From: a virus
DNA: 30,552 nucleotides
Strand: one strand, 5' to 3'
IMG/VR virus record: IMGVR_UViG_3300042345_000078
Span: 1-30,552 of that record
In this document: piece after piece, positions 4,671 through 17,523 of the stretch
How positions within the stretch are numbered: the first letter of the stretch is position 1
Layout: each line of letters starts with the position of its first letter
Program-made: the position numbers and the translations under genes
The notes under the pieces: generated by a model
Database searches by the model: none
What the model saw: the letters and a program-made list of their open reading frames with translations, nothing else
What the model was told of the DNA's origin: nothing

Positions 4671-5264
4671 TCAAAGTGTATGTGTCATTTTATATTGTTT
4701 TTCAAGGTCTGTCAAGGTGAAGCGCACATTATCTTTCAGGTTATCTAATGTGCTATCATTGACTAGGGTATAATCTACTGGCAGACCTTTCCAAGCCGTT
4801 TCAGAAATATGCATCTTGGAAAGTTCTTCATCGGTAGGATCTTCACCACGACGGACACGAATGATCACTCCGCCGACACTCCGAACAAAATCGATTTCGT
4901 TAGGAAAGCGAACGTCAGATATAACCACATCTTGATATCCCTGCATCCTTTTTTCAAGGGCAGCGATCCAGATGTTATCTGCAATACCGTTACGGCAAGC
5001 CTCTGTACCAAACTTTTGTAGAATAAGGCGAGGGGTGACCTCATAACCCAACTTGTTAGACCACCACGGATCTACTCTCTCACGGAACGCCCGTGAGGCA
5101 TTACTATCACCTTCTAAGAGACCCCGAGGCCACATGAACATTGTGGCGACGGCATCTTTAAGAGCATCAGCAAAAGCAAACTTGGTGTATTGATGATCTC
5201 TCACCAGTATGTCACCAACGGTGCCCTTGCCGGATCCAATGTACCCTACTAATCCTATGATCAT
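4671..5264 (-). CDS. 1: Deoxynucleoside monophosphate kinase (T4 gp1-like)
   Basis: A 197-residue P-loop kinase. Walker A is GYIGSGKGT (7-15), followed by KFAFADALKDAVATMF, an acceptor-binding RLILQKFGTEACR segment, VVISDVRFPNEIDFVRSVGG and RVRRGEDP. These match T4 gp1, which phosphorylates dTMP, dGMP and hydroxymethyl-dCMP to diphosphates for phage DNA synthesis. AGGAG lies seven bases before ATG 5264. Its start overlaps the stop of the zinc-finger gene as ATGA. The exact dNMP specificity cannot be read from the sequence. Confidence 0.9.
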   Translation of the reverse strand: MIIGLVGYIGSGKGTVGDILVRDHQYTKFAFADALKDAVATMFMWPRGLLEGDSNASRAFRERVDPWWSNKLGYEVTPRLILQKFGTEACRNGIADNIWIAALEKRMQGYQDVVISDVRFPNEIDFVRSVGGVIIRVRRGEDPTDEELSKMHISETAWKGLPVDYTLVNDSTLDNLKDNVRFTLTDLEKQYKMTHTL

Positions 5265-5716
5265 TTGCGGCTCCTACAGTTGTCAAAGTGCCACATTTTC
5301 ATAGCAGCACCTTTGCCGACTTTACCACAATGAGGACAGGTGTGTATTCTACATGATGAATGAGTGCCATTCTGAATACCTTTCATTGTATTGTTTCTTT
5401 GGTTTTCACTATCAAGAAAGTTATGAGTACCTTTCTTTATTCTATCAGAGGCAATCTTACGAAAACTAGGCTGCAAGGAATGATGTTTACCACTTTCAAT
5501 GGCTTTCTCATATCCTATCTTACCATTTTTACTCTGAAGGTCTCTATCAAGAAAACGATGGCGACCTTCTTCTATAAGTTTCTTTTGGACGTGACTACTC
5601 TGAATAGATTTCAGGTTTGCTTGTTCTACACATTCCCAATCTGGTTCAGGAATGTCTAAAATGGAAATGTTTGTAGGTATGCCGAGAGCCTCGGCTAGGG
5701 GACAATAAATAGACAT
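5261..5716 (-). CDS. Homing-endonuclease-associated DNA-binding protein with repeats and C-terminal zinc finger; no nuclease domain seen
   Basis: 151 residues from ATG 5716, which has GAGGAG eight bases upstream. Four imperfect repeats of the form (E/K)xGxHxFL follow one another: EGRHRFLDRDLQ (50-61), ESGKHHSLQPSFR (74-86), KKGTHNFLDSENQR (95-108) and QNGTHSSCRIH (115-125). The end is CPHCGKVGKGAAMKMWHFDNC, with C127, C130, H143 and C147 as likely zinc ligands. This tail and these repeats are typical of DNA-binding regions in phage HNH or GIY-YIG homing endonucleases. No HNH, GIY-YIG or LAGLIDADG core is present, so this is either a degraded mobile element or a stand-alone binding protein. 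A late-type box and a hairpin precede it. Confidence 0.65.
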   Translation of the reverse strand: MSIYCPLAEALGIPTNISILDIPEPDWECVEQANLKSIQSSHVQKKLIEEGRHRFLDRDLQSKNGKIGYEKAIESGKHHSLQPSFRKIASDRIKKGTHNFLDSENQRNNTMKGIQNGTHSSCRIHTCPHCGKVGKGAAMKMWHFDNCRSRK

Positions 5717-5741
5717 GCTGGCGCTCCTCAATAGCGTTAGG

Positions 5742-5784
5742 GCTGGTGGGGACGGCAATCCCGTGACCAGCACATCTATTTAGT
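5742..5784 (-). promoter_or_regulatory. Late-type box plus nested hairpin before the zinc-finger gene
   Basis: The minus strand has ACTAAATA (5784-5777), a variant of the late box, then GCTGGT...ACCAGC (5771-5766 with 5747-5742) enclosing GGGA...TCCC (5762-5759 with 5752-5749). T4 homing endonuclease genes often pair a late promoter with a hairpin that prevents early translation. The parallel is suggestive only. Confidence 0.4.
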
Positions 5785-6923: not shown

Positions 6924-6990
6924 GGTGTTGGTGGTCGTGAAAGGAAAGGACCCGTGTATAACCACCAACACCATTTTATTATACACGGGT
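6924..6990 (-). repeat. Two interlocked 12-bp inverted repeats over the winged-helix promoter and leader
   Basis: Repeat A: ACCCGTGTATAA (6990-6979 on the minus strand, overlapping the -10 box) and TTATACACGGGT (6961-6950). Repeat B: GGTGTTGGTGGT (6972-6961) and ACCACCAACACC (6935-6924). Both are perfect. They interleave as A, B, A', B', sharing base 6961, so one strand can form only one hairpin at a time without a pseudoknot. RNA started at this promoter would contain B complete but only half of A. Confidence 0.85.
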
Positions 6991-7006
6991 GTTCTTGTTA
7001 TGTCAA
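6978..7006 (-). promoter_or_regulatory. Consensus early promoter of the winged-helix gene
   Basis: TTGACA (7006-7001), a 17-bp spacer and TATAAT (6983-6978) match the sigma-70 consensus at all 12 positions. The -10 lies inside inverted repeat A. The -35 overlaps the second in-frame stop after cobS. Confidence 0.9.
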
Positions 7007-7050: not shown

Positions 7051-8247
7051 TCAAAACGCTACTTCCGCAGTTTCGTTAAACTCGGGAGTCGCCTGTTCAA
7101 CCACAGGAGCCGGATCAATCGTTTCATCGACTTTCTTATACAGTTCGAGGAAGGCATTCTTTGTATCCACATCAAAACGGTTCAGACAAAGTTCAATTGC
7201 TTTCACTTTATTCTGACCAAAGATACCATAAGCCTCGCAGATATGCACGAGACGGCGAGTTGAGATAATCTCGGACAAAGCACCTTCATAGAAGGACTTA
7301 CGAATAACGTCTGCCCAAGTCACTAGCTTATCAACAAATTCTGTGGCTTCAATACCAGAAGCACCGAGAACATTGTTGAGGATCTTAGTTTCAATCTTAG
7401 CAGACGGATATTCTTGTTCCATTGTAATGCTGAAACGCTCAAGGAACGCTTCATTCATAACATTGGTACCGATGAAACGACCATCATCAGAGCCTTTGCC
7501 TTTAGTGTTAGCAGTAGCAATGACATTGAAGCCAGCGGCAGGATGAACCACTCGATTAGTCTTTTTAAGATAGACAGCCTTGCCTTCAAGAACAGGCTGG
7601 AGACACATCATCTTATTAGAACCAAGATCAACTTCGTCTAATAGAAGAACGGCACCACGGCTCATGGCAGTGATAACAGGACCATCTTGCCAGACAGTCT
7701 CACCATTAACAAGACGGAAGCCACCGATCAAGTCATCTTCATCAGTCTCAATAGTGATATTGACACGGACACATTCACGCTTTTCATTAGCGCAAACTTG
7801 CTCAACCATCATGGTCTTGCCGTTGCCAGAAAGACCGGTAATGTAAGCGGGATAAAACTTGCGAGACTTGATAATAGCACGAACATCAGGGAAGTTGCCA
7901 AACGGGACATAACCAGTCGCCTTTTCGGGAACAAGAGAGAGTTCAGCATTATGAGAAAGAACAGACGGAGCAACCATCGCAACGGCTACAGTAGGCTCAA
8001 CAGGGGCCGCAACAACCTTAGCCACTTTTTCTTTCACAACCTTAGCAACGGTAGAAGCGCCGTTAGCTTTGATTGCATAAAGACCACGACCTAAACGAAC
8101 AGACGGGTCGTTGAACAACCAATGCGGACGAGCAATATCATACTTAGCAGCGATTTCATCTGCCTGCTTGCGAGTGATCTGGCGAACACCGCCGAGTTCA
8201 AAGCGGACCTTATCGATGAAAACCTGACGAGCATCAACCTTAGACAT
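7051..8247 (-). CDS. cobS: CobS-like / MoxR-clade AAA+ ATPase
   Basis: 398 residues. Residues 1-60 form a basic helical N-terminal region ending in RGLYAIK, then a low-complexity Ala/Val/Lys linker. The AAA+ core has Walker A GLSGNGKT (138-145), an IETDEDDLIGGFRLV loop, Walker B LLLDEVD (201-207), sensor-1 ATANTKGKG (244-252) and the arginine finger region AFLERF (267-272). In bacteria CobS with CobT drives cobalt insertion by CobN. Cyanophages carry cobS without the rest of that pathway. Here the neighbouring upstream gene is a CobT-like VWA protein, so the two probably form an ATPase and substrate-binding partner pair; the substrate is unknown. It has its own promoter (8282-8310) and AAAGGA before ATG 8247. 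Confidence 0.88.
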   Translation of the reverse strand: MSKVDARQVFIDKVRFELGGVRQITRKQADEIAAKYDIARPHWLFNDPSVRLGRGLYAIKANGASTVAKVVKEKVAKVVAAPVEPTVAVAMVAPSVLSHNAELSLVPEKATGYVPFGNFPDVRAIIKSRKFYPAYITGLSGNGKTMMVEQVCANEKRECVRVNITIETDEDDLIGGFRLVNGETVWQDGPVITAMSRGAVLLLDEVDLGSNKMMCLQPVLEGKAVYLKKTNRVVHPAAGFNVIATANTKGKGSDDGRFIGTNVMNEAFLERFSITMEQEYPSAKIETKILNNVLGASGIEATEFVDKLVTWADVIRKSFYEGALSEIISTRRLVHICEAYGIFGQNKVKAIELCLNRFDVDTKNAFLELYKKVDETIDPAPVVEQATPEFNETAEVAF

Positions 8248-8281
8248 ATAGAGTTCCTTTCACAAATCTCATTATATACAT

Positions 8282-8310
8282 AGTATATCATAGGGAAGGG
8301 CTATTGTCAA
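8282..8310 (-). promoter_or_regulatory. Early-type promoter of cobS
   Basis: TTGACA (8310-8305), a 17-bp spacer, then TATACT (8287-8282) on the minus strand. The -35 lies in the loop of the inverted repeat 8293-8319, linking it to the structure at the end of the upstream gene. Confidence 0.85.
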
Positions 8311-8319
8311 GCCCCTCCC
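8293..8319 (-). terminator. Inverted repeat after the cobT-like gene with the cobS -35 box in its loop
   Basis: Minus-strand GGGAGGGGCT (8319-8310) and AGCCCTTCCC (8302-8293) pair at nine of ten positions around a seven-base loop. The stem is GC-rich but lacks a following T run. It may end the cobT-like transcript partially. As DNA, the same repeat frames the -35 box. Confidence 0.45.
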
Positions 8320-8331
8320 AAGTCATTGATT

Positions 8332-10518
8332 TTACGCTACTTTCTTGCTATGGCCAGCAATGCGTTCCACAAACTGACGCAAAAGCACACGGTTGACAGT
8401 CTTTTTCTGGGCAAACTTGGAAAAGGCGGAAGCCATCTTTTTGACGGTCATTTTCTTTTCACCAGTATTGTCAATATCAAGATTGTTAGCCGTATCTTTC
8501 ATGGCAGATGAATTGATAATGTAGTATTCATCATACCCAGCACTCCGAACAGGATAGTATTTGTTATCACTCCAGTATTTACGGGCTTTCAAGAAAGCCT
8601 CGGGGTTACCGTTAGAGATATTATACTCACCGTCAATACGCTTGAAGTTGTTATATTCATACAAGAAGAAACCGACAAGATTACAGCCAGTGCTATCTTT
8701 CAGAATACGCAACAACGTATTAGTGTTTTCACGGGTTTGGGACCAGTGGTGGGGATACCAATCATAAGTCTTATTAGTCTGCGGATCAACGTAGAAATAA
8801 CGAGACTTATAATCTCTACCGTGATAACGAGGTTCGGTAGAATGTTCAATTCCATTCGAACCGTTGGAGTCACCATCAGTCAGCCAAATGACGTTAGTGA
8901 TTTCAAGTTTATTGCGGGTCGTAAAGTCCCGAACAACCTTGGGAGCAATCATAATAGCGTCATTCAACGGGGTGCCACCCATGCTATCAGAAGCAAGATA
9001 GTTACCCTGGCCAGCACACCAAAGATAAGACATTGCAAAATTCAATTCTTCTGTATTCATACGAGAAGAAAGGAAGTTACGCAACACCAAACGGGCACCT
9101 TTAATCACATTCTGCTTACCGATATAGGAGAAGGGATTATCAGCACCAGCATCTTTGAAGCCATACACTTCGAAGGGAACACCAATTTGCTTGCAGAACA
9201 ACGCAAGCGAAAAGAGTTGCTTCAAAGTTTCCATCAGATTGTAATGCATTGAACCAGACCAGTCAATGAACATCACAAAGCCGTGGTTCTTGCCTTTCGG
9301 GATAACAGTCAAGCGACGGAACACATCGTCATTATACTTGTAAGAATGTAGCTTGTTGGTATCGATAACACCAGTCTTGGCAACATTCAAACGAGCATAA
9401 AGTTCGGCAGCCTTACGCTGTTCAAACTCTTTGACCATGAATGAAATGGATTCTTTTTCTTTTACTTTCCACTTCATCATTTCACCACGAGCAAAGTCAA
9501 ACACATTCTTGGGAAGGTTAGATGAATAGTAGGTGGTCTTGCGAACACCAGCGATTTCATCACGCCAGTCTTTCAGAACAACTTTATAATCATTGACAGC
9601 CTTATCCCAATTGACAGTCGGCATGGTCAAATAGATAAAGTTGGTGCTATCGTTTTTAACGATTTCTTCGGACCTCTTTTGCCACGTTTCATCAGTTTCA
9701 GAACGAGGAGCATTAGAAGGACGTTCGGATGCACCAGCACCTTTGCCGTAGCCAGACTGACCGCTTATATCACCTTCACCCGGCCGGGCACCTTGACTTT
9801 TGCCGTTTTCATCGGCGTCACCGTCGCCGTCAAAATCTTCATAGTCATCACCATCAGAATCAAGGTCACCATCATCTTCTCCAGCGATTAGATCGATTTC
9901 CATTTCATTTTGATTTTCGAGTTTCTTCTTACAATAAGCATAGATTTCTTCTGTAAGAGCAACTACCTCAGCCCAAGTTTCAGCGTTCTCAACTTTCTTG
10001 AGCATAACTTTTTCTTCGGGAGAGAAAGTCAGGTTCATATGAACATTACCACCCTTGAAATACAAGTTCAAGCGGTCGATAAAGTTCATGCTATTGATAT
10101 CACGATTAGCAGTACCGAAGAAGTCACGTTCGACTAGTTCTTTATAGCCAACGAGATAGTTACGACGACAACCGGGATAACGGCGCTTTTGGCGCTTATC
10201 AATACGGGCATCTTCAATAACATTCAAGAAGCCAGAAACGGTACGAGCGAGTGCATCGCTGATTTTCTCATTAGGGAAAATCTTAGCAGCAATATCTTCG
10301 GCAGTCTTTTTGTAGATTTCAGCAGAAGGAGTATCAAGCGCATGACCAGTTTCATGAACAAGAAGCAAATCATCAAGGTCATTAGAGATACCCTGCCACA
10401 CGGGCAGCATCAATACACGGTTCTTTAGGTCAAACATAGCCGTCTTTAGTGACGGGTTACGCTGAACCGTAATATTTTCAGTAGCAAGGAGTTTTGCAAG
10501 AAGCGACTTATCAGACAT
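8332..10518 (-). CDS. CobT-like protein: N-terminal HExxH zincin domain plus C-terminal VWA domain
   Basis: 728 residues from ATG 10518, with AAAGGA seven bases upstream; a TTG two codons earlier is less likely. The N-terminal part holds LLLVHETGHALDTP, a zinc-protease HExxH (H55, E56, H59), and 43 residues on NVIEDARIDKR, where E102 is the probable third ligand. Residues 205-265 are an Asp/Glu- and Gly-rich linker. The C-terminal VWA domain has the MIDAS motif DWSGSM (D419, S421, S423), GGTPLNDA and LTDGDSNG, preceded by KTGVIDTNKL, as in CobT-type proteins. VWA proteins work with MoxR/CobS AAA+ ATPases, and the cobS-like gene follows directly. The full zinc motif suggests a peptidase that could be controlled by the ATPase; activity is unproven. 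Confidence 0.82.
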   Translation of the reverse strand: MSDKSLLAKLLATENITVQRNPSLKTAMFDLKNRVLMLPVWQGISNDLDDLLLVHETGHALDTPSAEIYKKTAEDIAAKIFPNEKISDALARTVSGFLNVIEDARIDKRQKRRYPGCRRNYLVGYKELVERDFFGTANRDINSMNFIDRLNLYFKGGNVHMNLTFSPEEKVMLKKVENAETWAEVVALTEEIYAYCKKKLENQNEMEIDLIAGEDDGDLDSDGDDYEDFDGDGDADENGKSQGARPGEGDISGQSGYGKGAGASERPSNAPRSETDETWQKRSEEIVKNDSTNFIYLTMPTVNWDKAVNDYKVVLKDWRDEIAGVRKTTYYSSNLPKNVFDFARGEMMKWKVKEKESISFMVKEFEQRKAAELYARLNVAKTGVIDTNKLHSYKYNDDVFRRLTVIPKGKNHGFVMFIDWSGSMHYNLMETLKQLFSLALFCKQIGVPFEVYGFKDAGADNPFSYIGKQNVIKGARLVLRNFLSSRMNTEELNFAMSYLWCAGQGNYLASDSMGGTPLNDAIMIAPKVVRDFTTRNKLEITNVIWLTDGDSNGSNGIEHSTEPRYHGRDYKSRYFYVDPQTNKTYDWYPHHWSQTRENTNTLLRILKDSTGCNLVGFFLYEYNNFKRIDGEYNISNGNPEAFLKARKYWSDNKYYPVRSAGYDEYYIINSSAMKDTANNLDIDNTGEKKMTVKKMASAFSKFAQKKTVNRVLLRQFVERIAGHSKKVA

Positions 10519-10544
10519 AAACAAATCCTTTCACGATTTTCATA

Positions 10545-10573
10545 AGTATAGCAAATCTGGACGGTTTTGTCAA
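10545..10573 (-). promoter_or_regulatory. Early-type promoter of the cobT-like gene
   Basis: TTGACA (10573-10568), a 17-bp spacer, TATACT (10550-10545). The layout matches the cobS promoter, and both leaders share GTGAAAGGA at the ribosome site, suggesting joint regulation. Confidence 0.88.
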
Positions 10574-10585
10574 GTCCCAATGGAA

Positions 10586-10729
10586 TCAACGTTTTGCAGG
10601 GAACTTACTCACAATCCATGCTACGGAATAGATCAGAATGTAAACACCAGCCACAAGCAGGAATACTTCCCCGATCTCGGCATGGTGCTTTAGCGTATCA
10701 AAGTCAAAGTAAGTAGGAGTATATTTCAT
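10586..10729 (-). CDS. Small single-helix membrane protein (47 aa)
   Basis: MKYTPTYFDFDTLKHHAEIG leads into one hydrophobic helix (VFLLVAGVYILIYSVAWIV) and a short basic tail, SKFPAKR. Its ATG overlaps the methylase stop by one base (TGATG), implying coupled translation. It ends just upstream of the cobT-like promoter. I do not recognise a family. Confidence 0.68.
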   Translation of the reverse strand: MKYTPTYFDFDTLKHHAEIGEVFLLVAGVYILIYSVAWIVSKFPAKR

Positions 10730-12348
10730 CACTTCACCTTTCGGAATACAAAGATAGGTTCATACTTTAGCATAATCTTTTTGCCGTTGCTATCGATCTG
10801 ACAAAAGTTTTTCATCTTACCTTCTAGGATGGCTTCTCGTTCTTCTTCACCCGTGATAGGATTGACTGTTACCGTTTCACCAGTCTCAACCATTCTATTC
10901 CCACCGGGCATCTGTGCTAGAGCCATCTTGAGAGTTCCGACATATTCCATTCCTAACTCTTTTAGAATATTACACGAATCTTCTTCCAATGTCAAGAGTT
11001 TTCCATCAAAAGCGGCATCTGCAATATTCCACAATAGATATCGATTAGGACGCAGGTATTCTACCGCAGTCTCTAATGTAGGACGCAGAAAACCATCGAC
11101 CCAATCTTGATACTGGGAAAACTTATGACATGACTGCTCAGGATCATCCGAATAAACCTCTTTAGCAAAGTAAGGAGGTGAGGTGAATACCATATCAAGT
11201 TTGCCTTTATACTTTTGAAAGCCAGGCTGAAACTGTGCTACCTCAGACCCACACTGGAAAATCTCATATGTGTGTGATTTAGGGAATAGGCTGCCTGATT
11301 CTCGGACGTTCTCATTGAAGAAATCAGCCACCTCGTGATACTTGGTTCTACCAGGTCCAGTGTTATGATCAGTGTTAGGGTCAGTACCAATGTAATGAAT
11401 AGTTCTTTTGTCATCTACCGCCATTGCTCCTGTGATACGACCAGCCCAACCAGATGACGGGTCCCAAATGTTGATTACATCTTGATCTTTGATATGATCA
11501 GTGAAACGCTCATAAAGATAACGAGCGGTGAGTGGTGGGAAATTCACCGCATACTGACAGAAGGACACTCTGAAAGACTTTAGCCCAAGAGGGAACACCT
11601 TCTGTCCTAGTTTGAATAGGCGAATGGTATAGGCATTAGTCTTGTTACGATCCACATTGGTGCGGCAGCGATCTGGCACCTTATCAGCATAATCAGCATC
11701 TACAATGACATTCTGTCTCTTACCTAGAGTAGCAGAATATCCAGTATAAACCTTATCTTCTTTGATAGGACAAAGCCAGTAGTCCCAACCTTCTTTGTCT
11801 TTCATAAACTCGACAAACTGGTCAGCGGACTCTATCTGATAAGGTACGTTGTTTATTTTACCAAAATCACCAATAGAAATAGGATTAGAATAATGATAAA
11901 AGGAGTCCCGCTTGAAGTGTCTGCTGGCGTAGGTAACAAAGGTGTCAAGATACCCATCATCTGCAAAATAGTCATAGATTGACTTAGCCTTTCCTTTTGT
12001 AGTATAGGAGATACCAGTTTTCATCATCGTGGGGAACCACTGATTGACAGCATTACCTACAATAGAGGTGTTACGAATAACATCTTTCTCACCAGTGCGA
12101 AGGTCTAAAGTTTCAAACTCATGAACAGGAAATGAAACCATCTTCTGGAAGTTATCAATGATACCTTCTTCTGTGAAACCTACACGAGGAGGAATGCCTT
12201 CATCATCCCACAGGCGCACGACCTCTTTACGCATATCGATGACCCACTGCCTAAACTCAGCATCGGTCATCCATAGCAGTTCCTCAAAAGTCTTATTGAC
12301 TGTAGAGTTTAGCAGTTCATCGTTACGTTCATAAAACCATTGTTTCAT
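10729..12348 (-). CDS. DNA methyltransferase, N4/N6 (amino) type, with large N-terminal region
   Basis: 539 residues. The SAM-binding motif I is IWDPSSGWAGRI (294-305) and the catalytic motif IV is FTSPPYF (388-394), a TSPPY typical of amino-methylating enzymes, most often N4-cytosine. Later pieces, LRPNRYLLWNIAD and the final PIFVFRK, also fit. The ~280 residues before motif I have no motif I know and may recognise the DNA target. No restriction enzyme gene lies nearby, so it probably modifies phage DNA against host restriction or has a regulatory role. The start overlaps the previous gene by 20 bases, and the ribosome site (GTGAGA) is weak. Confidence 0.83.
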   Translation of the reverse strand: MKQWFYERNDELLNSTVNKTFEELLWMTDAEFRQWVIDMRKEVVRLWDDEGIPPRVGFTEEGIIDNFQKMVSFPVHEFETLDLRTGEKDVIRNTSIVGNAVNQWFPTMMKTGISYTTKGKAKSIYDYFADDGYLDTFVTYASRHFKRDSFYHYSNPISIGDFGKINNVPYQIESADQFVEFMKDKEGWDYWLCPIKEDKVYTGYSATLGKRQNVIVDADYADKVPDRCRTNVDRNKTNAYTIRLFKLGQKVFPLGLKSFRVSFCQYAVNFPPLTARYLYERFTDHIKDQDVINIWDPSSGWAGRITGAMAVDDKRTIHYIGTDPNTDHNTGPGRTKYHEVADFFNENVRESGSLFPKSHTYEIFQCGSEVAQFQPGFQKYKGKLDMVFTSPPYFAKEVYSDDPEQSCHKFSQYQDWVDGFLRPTLETAVEYLRPNRYLLWNIADAAFDGKLLTLEEDSCNILKELGMEYVGTLKMALAQMPGGNRMVETGETVTVNPITGEEEREAILEGKMKNFCQIDSNGKKIMLKYEPIFVFRKVK

Positions 12349-14017: not shown

Positions 14018-15739
14018 TCATTGCTCCTTAGTTAAAGTAGAAAAGTTCTTTACCTTCTCAAACTTGATGGTTCTCTGGAATCTATCGATCATTGTATCCT
14101 TATGAGAAATGACAAAGATATTTGTTCCTTTGTCACCCATTTCCCACATGATCTTGATAAACTCGTCCGTACCTGCACCATCCATAGCACGATCTAAGAT
14201 TTCATCGAACACAAGTATATTGACATTGACACTATTCTTTAGTTTGGCAATCTGTCTCCATGTTAGAAGAATAGCCAAGTCAATTCTTAGTTTCTCACCC
14301 TCTGAGAAATTGTGATAGGAGAACTCGTCTCTGTATCTTGACTTGATGGATTCTTCGAAGGATTCGTTAATATTGAAGTTGACAAAGAAACCCAGTTTTG
14401 CCAAGTATTTGTTGATGTGCTTGTTGATGATAGGAAGATATTGTTTAATAATCTTCGTCTTGATTCCACCATCTTTGAGTAGGGTAGTGGCAAGATCAAT
14501 GTATTGTCTTTCATCTAAAAGGGTCTCCTTCTCCTTTTGGAGGGCGGAAATATCATGTTCCACTCTTTCGAGTTGTCGTTCGCTATCTTGCGTTGTTTTA
14601 TCTGATGATGTGAAGGATTCAATCTGCTCCACAACTTGACGCAGATTATTAGCAATATGGTTATAGGAAGACTTAGCAGATGAAAGACCCATTTTAAGTT
14701 CGTTGATCTTTGTGAGAACTTCATCAATTTTCTCTATGTCTGATAGAACCAAGTCTATCTGGTCGGTAACTTTATTTAGTCCTTCGTCGAGTTCATCAAT
14801 CTTGGTTTCATTCTCGGTCATTGCCTTGACCTTGAAATCATTTTGGATGTTTTGTTTACAGGTCGGACAGGTATCGTTATCACGGAAAAAGAAATTCTCC
14901 TTGACTACCCGTTCACGGTTGCCTTCCATCTTGGCTTTGAAGCCAATGAGTTTAGAGTGTTTAGTCTTTAGTGGTGTTAGATCGATATCCTTTTCTAAGG
15001 CTCTCTCAAGTAGGGCATTATGATTGATAACACCAACTTCTTGAACCTTTAGATCAAGTTCTAAGTTCTCTTTCTTTGCTTTAAGTTCTTTTAACTTCTC
15101 CTCACTGTTAGCACGTAAGGATTCTAATGTCTGTTCAATGTAAGTCTTGTTCTCTTCCTTGCTTGTCAATGTAATACGGTTCTTCTCAAGACCTTCTCTA
15201 TTGATCTGGAGACGGTTCTTAACCACATTAGACATAGCCGTGAAGATTTGAATGTCTAGCAAATCCTCAATGACTGCACGGCGATCATTAGATGATAGCT
15301 GCATGAAAGGAACAAACGATGCGGAGCCTAGAATAACGACCTGCGTGAATGACTTGTAATTCATTCGCAGAATGTTCTTCTCTAGATGTTCTTGATAGTC
15401 TTTTGCGGCGGCATCTTGATTGACCTTATTACCTTCACAATAGATTTCAAACAAGTTGGGCTTGGCACCACGGATAACTTTGTATCGCTTGTTAGATGAG
15501 GTAAACTCAATCTGAACCTCACAGTTCTTATTGTTGATAGAGTTGACCACGTTGCCCTTATTAACCTTACGGAAAGGCTTCCCGAATAGCACAAAAGTCA
15601 ATGCGTCGAGGAAGGTTGACTTCCCCGACCCATTGTGTCCCATGATTAGAGTATTCTTGTGCGTATCTAGTTCAATCTCTGTCCATACATTACCTGCGGA
15701 CAGAAAGTTTTTCCACTTAACATAATGAAAAGTTATCAT
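14018..15739 (-). CDS. 46: Recombination nuclease subunit gp46 (Rad50/SbcC-like)
   Basis: 573 residues, near the T4 length of 560. The N-terminal half-ATPase has MGHNGSGKSTFLDAL (Walker A 34-41) and a Q-loop region, FTQVVILGSASFVPFMQLS. Long coiled coils flank a zinc hook, CPTCKQN, near residue 290. The C-terminal half has the signature NFSEGEKLRIDLAI, Walker B NILVFDEILD and the switch histidine in VISHKD. With gp47 it resects DNA ends for recombination-dependent replication and host DNA breakdown. Its ATG overlaps the FtsH stop by one base (TGATG), so it is coupled to ftsH, not directly to gp47. Confidence 0.97.
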   Translation of the reverse strand: MITFHYVKWKNFLSAGNVWTEIELDTHKNTLIMGHNGSGKSTFLDALTFVLFGKPFRKVNKGNVVNSINNKNCEVQIEFTSSNKRYKVIRGAKPNLFEIYCEGNKVNQDAAAKDYQEHLEKNILRMNYKSFTQVVILGSASFVPFMQLSSNDRRAVIEDLLDIQIFTAMSNVVKNRLQINREGLEKNRITLTSKEENKTYIEQTLESLRANSEEKLKELKAKKENLELDLKVQEVGVINHNALLERALEKDIDLTPLKTKHSKLIGFKAKMEGNRERVVKENFFFRDNDTCPTCKQNIQNDFKVKAMTENETKIDELDEGLNKVTDQIDLVLSDIEKIDEVLTKINELKMGLSSAKSSYNHIANNLRQVVEQIESFTSSDKTTQDSERQLERVEHDISALQKEKETLLDERQYIDLATTLLKDGGIKTKIIKQYLPIINKHINKYLAKLGFFVNFNINESFEESIKSRYRDEFSYHNFSEGEKLRIDLAILLTWRQIAKLKNSVNVNILVFDEILDRAMDGAGTDEFIKIMWEMGDKGTNIFVISHKDTMIDRFQRTIKFEKVKNFSTLTKEQ

Positions 15740-17523
15740 CAAAAATCTCTGGTTGGAATCTTACCCTCTAGTAGATCGGTGATTTCTTCACCGGATAGAG
15801 TTTCATATTCTAGCAGACCATTAGCTAGTTTGTCAAGGTCTTTTCTTTTCTTAGTAAGAATTTTATAAGCAGTTTCATATCCTTCTTCCACTAAGCGTAG
15901 GATTTCTTCATCAACTGCCTTCTGTGTTTCTTCTGCAACTTTAGGAGCATGGAACACATCAGCATTAGGTGTTGAGTATGCCATTCTACCTAGTCTCGGA
16001 GAGAAACCATATTCGGTAACCATTGAACGAGCAAGTTGAGTTGCCATCTGAATGTCACCAGATGCACCAGAAGATACTTTCATATCACCGAAGATCATTT
16101 CTTCTGCTACACGACCACCCATAGCCATTGCTAGATTGGCAATCATTTCATCATAGTGCATGGAGATTTTATCACGCTCTGGTAGAGACTGAACCATACC
16201 CAAAGCACGACCACGTGGGATGATTGTTGCTTTGTGAATAGGAACAGAACCTGGCATGTTGATTGATACTAGAGCATGACCGGCTTCGTGATATGCAGTC
16301 ATCTTCTTTTCTTCATCGCTCATGATCAAAGTGCGGCGTTCAGGACCCATAAGGATCTTATCACGAGCATCTTCAAACTCCATACCAGTAACAATACGCT
16401 TTGAACGTCTTGCTGCTAGTAGAGCGGCTTCATTGACTAGATTAGCAAGGTCAGCACCAGAGAAGCCCGGCGTGCCTTTTGCTACTCGCTTTAGATCAAC
16501 ATCAGGACCAACTGGCACCTTGCGAGTATGTACCTTCAGGATCTTTTCACGACCAACGAAGTCAGGATTAGGAACTTGAATCTGTCTATCAAAACGACCT
16601 GGACGCAATAGAGCCTTATCTAGAACGTCAGCACGGTTAGTTGCTGCGATGATAATGATACCTTGATTATCATTGAAGCCATCCATTTCAACTAGCATAG
16701 CGTTTAATGTCTGGTCACGTTCATCGTTACCTGAGATACCATTTGCTCTTGAACGACCAACAGCATCGATTTCGTCAATGAAGATAATGCATGGTGCGTT
16801 CTTCTTAGCCTGTTCAAACATATCACGGACACGGGAAGCACCCACACCCACGAACATTTCAACAAAGTCAGAACCAGAGATAGAGAAGAAGGGAACACCC
16901 GCTTCACCAGCAACGGCACGAGCAAGTAGTGTCTTACCTGTACCTGGAGGACCAACGAGTAGAACACCCTTAGGGATTTTACCACCTAGGCGTTCAAACT
17001 TATGTGGGTCTTGTAGAAACTCTACAACCTCTTGTAAATCTTCTTTAGCTTCATCAACACCTGCAACATCTTCAAATGTCTTACGACCATGTTCCTCAGT
17101 GAGTAGTTTAGCCTTAGACTTACCCAAGCCCATGACACCACCACCTGCACCTGAACGGCGAGATAGCATAAGCCAAAGACCAAAGAACAAGAAAACAGGA
17201 AGTAGATTGATCAACAGACCAACCCAAAACCCATTTGCACCTTCTTCTTTGACTGTGATATTTACTTTATGTGTTTCTAGGCGGGGAAGCAGATTACCGA
17301 GACCGGTAACTGTAGTCGAAAACTGTCGATTGTCCATAAAGTGGCCAACCACATTTTCACCGATGATCGTAACGTCATGAACTCTGCCTGCATCGACTTG
17401 TGCAATAAAGTCAGAGTAGCCAATCTCGGAAACGACCTTCTGTTTTGGTCCTTCAAAAATGAATGACACTAATACAAGTGACATCAAGATCAATAGAACC
17501 CAAGGTAAATGTTTCTTTATCAT
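15739..17523 (-). CDS. ftsH: Full-length FtsH membrane AAA+ zinc protease
   Basis: 594 residues with the whole FtsH plan. Membrane helix 1 is ~8-23, a small extracytoplasmic domain follows, and helix 2 is ~99-120. The AAA+ domain has Walker A GPPGTGKT (191-198), pore loop [14 protein letters not shown] (223-236), Walker B FIDEID (248-253) and the second region of homology, [20 protein letters not shown] (294-313). The protease has HEAGH (412-416) and the third zinc ligand D490 in SSGASGD. All catalytic residues are intact, so it should degrade membrane and unstable soluble proteins. Bacterial FtsH is usually ~610-650 residues; the C terminus here is short. It lies between gp47 and gp46, one base overlapping gp46, and has a T4-type late box (17557-17550). 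AGAGG precedes ATG 17523. Confidence 0.97.

Follow-up and report, generated by a model that had tools for sequence, protein, structure and literature searches.

Results

A CobS-like ATPase gene adjoins a gene for a VWA protein with a candidate zinc site

The virus record IMGVR_UViG_3300042345_000078, analyzed over its full 30,552 bases and referred to here as the window, covers part of the genome of a T4-like phage. On its minus strand it carries a gene for a CobS-like ATPase of the MoxR class of AAA+ proteins and, adjoining it, a gene for a CobT-like protein that combines a candidate zinc-peptidase site with a von Willebrand factor A (VWA) domain. The ATPase (positions 7051–8247, minus strand; 398 residues) matches phrog_249 (8e-118) as well as the Pfam family AAA_5, the latter above the cut-off. 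Its Walker A motif GLSGNGKT (residues 138–145, positions 7813–7836) is nearly invariant in an alignment with 12 relatives, and alignment of relatives also locates the Walker B motif LLLDEVD (residues 201–207, positions 7627–7647). In the PDB, it matches midasin, CobS, NorQ, and CbbQ; with 94.5 bits against a curated cut-off of 558.55, it falls outside TIGR01650, the aerobic cobaltochelatase CobS family.

The partner protein comprises 728 residues from an ATG at 10518 (8332–10518, minus strand) and matches phrog_459, labeled 'peptidase' (1e-177). Its zincin-like N-terminal domain (residues 1–206, positions 9901–10518) contains the sequence HETGH (residues 55–59, 10342–10356), a candidate zinc-binding and catalytic site, and further downstream the sequence NVIEDAR (residues 99–105, 10204–10224), in which E102 is the candidate third ligand. 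An acidic linker rich in Asp and Glu (residues 207–270, 9709–9900) follows this domain, and further on a VWA domain (about residues 408–622, 8653–9297) carries a metal-ion-dependent adhesion site (MIDAS) with the sequence DWSGS (residues 419–423, 9250–9264). No Pfam family matches the protein: PF06213 (CobT), PF11775 (CobT_C), and also DUF2201, which had been suggested in a first reading of the bare sequence (the original prediction), gave no match at E-values up to 1. Searches of PDB sequences with the protein alone or with its profile returned nothing, or only low-complexity acidic matches.

The metal-site residues are invariant in a divergent family

We collected 132 full-length relatives of the VWA protein and retained the 101 that share less than 90% mutual identity; some of these have diverged from the window protein to about 30% identity. 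In all 101 of these sequences H55, E56, H59, N99, E102, D103, and R105 of the N-terminal domain and D419, S421, S423, T516, and D548 of the VWA domain are invariant, although the columns of a 73-row family alignment average only 31% identity. Viral relatives were retrieved with peptide patterns free of HExxH, and the motif was therefore not selected for among them; in a scan of genome contigs, one of two patterns did contain it, and the rows from that scan give no independent count for HExxH. The conserved HExxH with a downstream glutamate that typifies zincin metallopeptidases is thus present throughout the set (101 of 101). The motif is also intact in very distant viral homologues, namely those of the Escherichia coli phages PhiR41_1 (HEVAH at residues 74–78) and CMS-2020a, Klebsiella phage p4727, Rhizobium phages V1VFA-S and RHEph10, Gordonia phage Charianelly, Vibrio phage ICP2, and the archaeal virus HVTV-2, which has a haloarchaeal host.

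Structure prediction for the full-length protein (predicted local distance difference test score, pLDDT, of 80) yielded an N-terminal part with three strands, a helix at residues 46–62 carrying HExxH, and a second helix at residues 88–113 carrying N99 to R105; it is followed by the acidic linker, which is predicted to be disordered (pLDDT below 50 over residues 215–263), a long helical stalk, and the VWA domain. Foldseek returned as the best structural match of the VWA part the VWA domain of NorD in complex with NorQ, and also the MIDAS domain of midasin. For the N-terminal domain modeled alone with AlphaFold2 (AF2; pLDDT 93.3), nothing in the PDB reached an E-value under 0.001; its top two matches, selecase (probability 0.66) and ArdC (0.84), are nevertheless both zincins with an HExxH, at weak E-values of 0.4–0.6; the other PDB matches listed have probabilities of at most 0.13. 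Scattered weak Pfam matches of single relatives to SprT-like and other zincin models were not counted as proof, and the zincin matches of the modeled domain are likewise supportive rather than conclusive.

What the original prediction had observed was confirmed, and its interpretation was borne out in part: the CobS-like ATPase and the VWA protein with HETGH, NVIEDAR, and a MIDAS lie where it had placed them. The MoxR/VWA class of machines that it had named also agrees with the data, the AAA_5 ATPase having both Walker motifs intact and the adjoining VWA protein a complete MIDAS and a NorD- and midasin-like modeled structure. As for the zinc site, the model was confident (pLDDT 93) and pointed to two HExxH metalloproteins, but the E-values left the structural support incomplete.

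The pair recurs among replication genes and has sigma70-type promoters

In the window, the pair lies between the clamp genes and gp46, and in T4-like phages generally it is found between the clamp genes gp45/44 and gp46/47/55. In DLP6 it comes after the genes for DNA polymerase, UvsX, and primase-helicase; in phages of Escherichia, Rhizobium, Pseudomonas, and Stenotrophomonas it precedes the DNA polymerase III alpha gene by at most three genes, and in Vibrio phage ICP2 it comes ahead of the genes for primase, helicase, and polymerase. Placement in the replication module thus recurs in several unrelated lineages. The cobS gene is downstream of the VWA gene in most loci. Among contigs at 32–36% identity, one has cobS many kilobases from the VWA gene, and in 5 of 10 records of the family cobS was not found within the fragment. 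No VWA partner was seen among the neighbors in Microbacterium phage Pumpernickel and Acinetobacter phage AM24.

Both genes are preceded by a sigma70-type promoter of the form TTGACA-17-TATACT, located on the minus strand at 10545–10573 for the VWA gene and at 8282–8310 for the CobS-like gene, that is, 27 and 35 nucleotides upstream of the respective gene starts. Each matches the consensus at 11 of 12 positions and has a TG before the −10 element, and each gene has a ribosome site GAAAGGA (10526–10532 and 8255–8261, minus strand), confirming the matching signals that had been noted originally. The coding strand of the window holds 7 sites with at least 11 of 12 matches and a spacer of 17, compared with 0.18 in shuffled sequences. 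A late-type TATAAATA box was not seen before either gene of the pair. Because of this recurrent replication-gene setting and these promoters, we consider that the pair probably acts in replication or takeover rather than in the virion, which disfavors the virion role that the original prediction had offered as one option. A perfect 12 of 12 sigma70-type promoter (6978–7006, minus strand) lies just downstream of the CobS-like gene and precedes a 75-residue open reading frame (ORF) that has no PHROG match.

CobN is absent from the phages searched, and B12 demand probably does not explain the pair

Phage cobS is commonly classed among the auxiliary genes for B12. We searched for CobN, the further subunit of the aerobic cobaltochelatase complex. 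No match was found in the window, a 30.5 kb fragment, as the original prediction had stated; five phages with complete genomes and five large related contigs of 137–174 kb likewise gave none. Phage PhiR41_1, which carries the HExxH-bearing pair, is recorded from E. coli K-12 MG1655, and the E. coli control genome had no CobN match; in an assembly of Nonlabens xiamenensis, which includes the contig of a T4-like phage bearing the VWA gene, CobN is lacking. The pelagiphage HTVC008M also carries the pair and infects SAR11, which is reported to be auxotrophic for B12 (PMC9296465). Cyanobacterial hosts do have CobN-type proteins.

In close relatives of the window phage (174, 164, and 172 kb), the ribonucleotide reductase is of the adenosylcobalamin-dependent type, with a score slightly below the curated value; this class II enzyme is a single subunit of about 630 residues, and the class I small subunit is lacking. 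Class I reductases are found in the cyanophages tested, HTVC008M, DLP6, and the Rhizobium and Pseudomonas relatives. Because the pair is common to the groups with class I and with B12-dependent reductases, B12 demand does not explain it. The broader notion that B12 demand matters in none of the carriers is weakened by the class II reductase of the close relatives. For the doubt that the original prediction had cast on a cobalamin role, the outcome is therefore mixed, the absence of CobN from related phages speaking for it and the reductase of the close relatives pointing to a B12 link, which we rate as improbable for this lineage.

In 15 of the 23 alphaproteobacterial genomes sampled that have a CobT match and were tested for CobN, no CobN match was found, the completeness of these genomes not being stated; CobS adjoins CobT in most of the alphaproteobacterial loci read. 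The control Caulobacter vibrioides likewise has CobT and no CobN match. Cellular CobST may have a role outside cobalamin synthesis.

Relationship to CobT and to described phage systems

The pair corresponds to PHROGs 459 and 249, with full-length profile matches and paired genes, and is represented in about 460 phage records. The counts of the two families are equal, with 365 Synechococcus, 61 Cyanophage, and 24 Prochlorococcus records. The pairs of T4-like phages share gene order and replication-gene setting with that of the window, although the window VWA protein is only about 30–35% identical to those of cultured cyanophages. PHROG 249 is labeled 'porphyrin biosynthesis' and contains the cyanophage CobS, whose gene belongs to the core of T4-like cyanophages (PMC3037559). 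We considered whether the family has close cellular members and rejected this: the genome-contig matches are mainly metagenome bins and single cells, and in both assemblies checked among them a T4-like capsid gene was present as well.

Residues 310–461 of the window protein align with the stalk and VWA domain of alphaproteobacterial CobT (profile–profile probability 93%, E 2.5e-7), the regions in which the two are homologous. Their N-terminal domains align weakly around the same motif (NVIEDARID in the phage protein versus EATEQARVE in CobT), so that cellular CobT partly retains the E[DQ]xR-type motif but, unlike the phage protein, lacks HExxH; the phage pair, for its part, lacks a CobN partner. 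PHROG 1576 matches cellular CobT (2e-44), and an E. coli phage member of it matches phrog_459 around the HExxH region; in a viral structure library, CobT-like proteins from Gordonia phages and from viruses of haloarchaea are linked to the window protein. By these comparisons, viral intermediates bridge phrog_459 proteins and cellular CobT. The direction may have been loss of HExxH in CobT rather than gain in phages.

Two published readings exist for such proteins. In a study of viral CobST in tailed viruses of archaea and bacteria, the cyanophage protein was counted as a CobT 'mistakenly annotated as a peptidase', and cobalt chelation together with host CobN was inferred (PMC8651126); HVTV-2 CobT, from the same group of viral proteins, keeps HExxH. 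In group 2.2 jumbo phages, a different phage group that we liken to the window by its described architecture, a MoxR ATPase adjoins a vWA protein with an N-terminal metallopeptidase, and the pair was assigned to virion assembly (PMC7824862). Our data suggest that both names fit, the protein being CobT-like with an intact zincin site that cellular CobT does not have; the 'mistaken peptidase' remark is half right, because the protein is CobT-like yet has a peptidase site. The window pair accordingly adds one more member to a phage family already described, and it is less novel than the original prediction implied, given that relatives are already annotated as peptidases and the architecture is published. 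The present analysis contributes a connection between these two readings, a count of conserved residues, a search for CobN in phages as well as hosts, and the setting among replication genes.

The nearest structures belong to remodeling machines that combine AAA+ and VWA/MIDAS parts: NorQ/NorD, which acts on nitric oxide reductase, CbbQ/CbbO, which acts on Rubisco, and midasin, which acts on ribosome precursors. Among these and the phage pair, a conserved zincin-type site is shown here for the phage protein only. Selecase and ArdC have an HExxH like that of the N-terminal domain but no VWA or ATPase partner.

Discussion

The invariant residues, the NorD- and midasin-like VWA domain, the matches of the ATPase, the zincin-like N-terminal domain, the HExxH of distant homologues, the replication setting, and the lack of CobN in the phages searched together suggest a MoxR-class ATPase and VWA partner in which remodeling is coupled to limited proteolysis, with a place in phage replication or takeover, none in cobalamin synthesis, and probably none in the virion. 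We assign this reading a probability of roughly 0.4. By analogy to CobST, NorQD, and midasin, the CobS-like protein would form an AAA+ ring, and the VWA domain may use its MIDAS to dock on this ring and on a substrate. With energy from ATP, the partner could move over the acidic linker, by which the zincin domain is tethered, and so present or unfold the substrate at that domain, which would bind zinc and cut the peptide chain at a single position or a few. The stage would be replication of the phage DNA or takeover of the host.

Several observations weigh against this proposal: the zincin fold match is weak by E-value, cellular CobT lacks HExxH, cobS does not adjoin the VWA gene in part of the family, and Pseudomonas phages nickie and ZY21 and Stenotrophomonas phage ANB28 keep the pair and its context with an absent or broken HExxH. 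These three phages contradict the idea that HExxH is universal among viral CobT-like proteins. Since they have lost the motif while retaining the pair, cleavage is dispensable in some lineages, and the ATPase–VWA part can work without it. For this reason the main rival is ATP-driven remodeling without proteolysis, as in NorQD, CbbQO, and CobST, whereby a target is reshaped or loaded with metal and the zincin domain only grips the substrate or holds a structural metal. It draws on the nearest structures, NorQ–NorD and midasin, and on the persistence of the machine with a broken HExxH in two or more lineages of phages and in cellular CobT, but a site of purely structural use would hardly account for the catalytic E56, in addition to the metal-binding histidines, being invariant in all 101 sequences of the T4-like clade; we regard it as possible, if doubtful.

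That phage CobST and host CobN jointly insert cobalt and increase the cobalamin available to, for example, a B12-dependent ribonucleotide reductase (PMC8651126), would accord with the real kinship to CobS and CobT, the reductase type of the close relatives, and the CobN-type proteins of cyanobacterial hosts. This account seems improbable, as it leaves the conserved HExxH unexplained and has to accommodate pairs in phages of CobN-less hosts (E. coli K-12 and the Nonlabens assembly), a pelagiphage of a B12-auxotrophic host, and the carriers with class I reductases. About equally improbable is a function in virion assembly and structural-protein processing as proposed for the group 2.2 jumbo phages (PMC7824862), in a paper that also describes the tail of the archaeal virus ATV as requiring a MoxR–vWA pair: despite the matching architecture described there, the pair sits in replication modules in several lineages, its sigma70-type promoters come with no late TATAAATA box, and the window has its capsid and scaffold genes in other places. 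A protease that inactivates a host defense or takeover-blocking complex early in infection would fit the promoters and the resemblance of the N-terminal model to the antirestriction zincin ArdC, but we consider it very improbable in view of the fixed place among replication genes, the lack of any PADLOC-DB match to known anti-phage defense systems, and the status of cobS as a core rather than a patchy gene in T4-like cyanophages (PMC3037559).

If the pair is indeed a remodeling machine coupled to a protease, the ecological inference drawn from phage cobS as a B12 gene falls, and a conserved phage function becomes testable in E. coli K-12. The N-terminal domain of CobT would be recast as a dead zincin. 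Extending this, the VWA–zincin subunit of a replication-linked phage metalloprotease could be the ancestral CobT, the bacterial subunit being a reused protease without its active site and CobN-less cellular CobST sharing the same non-cobalamin function; we offer this as a speculation and think it unlikely as a whole.

Other features of the window

The recognizable minus-strand genes of the window encode clamp gp45, clamp loader gp44, dUTPase, dNMP kinase, the gp46/47 nuclease, late sigma factor gp55, a UvsW-type helicase, capsid gp23, and the scaffold. Directly upstream of the VWA gene lies a gene for a 539-residue protein (10729–12348, minus strand) that resembles a phage DNA methyltransferase family over the short stretch of residues 381–470 only. 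Another AAA+ protein of 594 residues (15739–17523, minus strand; phrog_30773) is encoded between the gp46 and gp47 genes, and an ORF at 5261–5773 (minus strand), which is intron-like or homing-endonuclease-like, adjoins the dNMP kinase gene.

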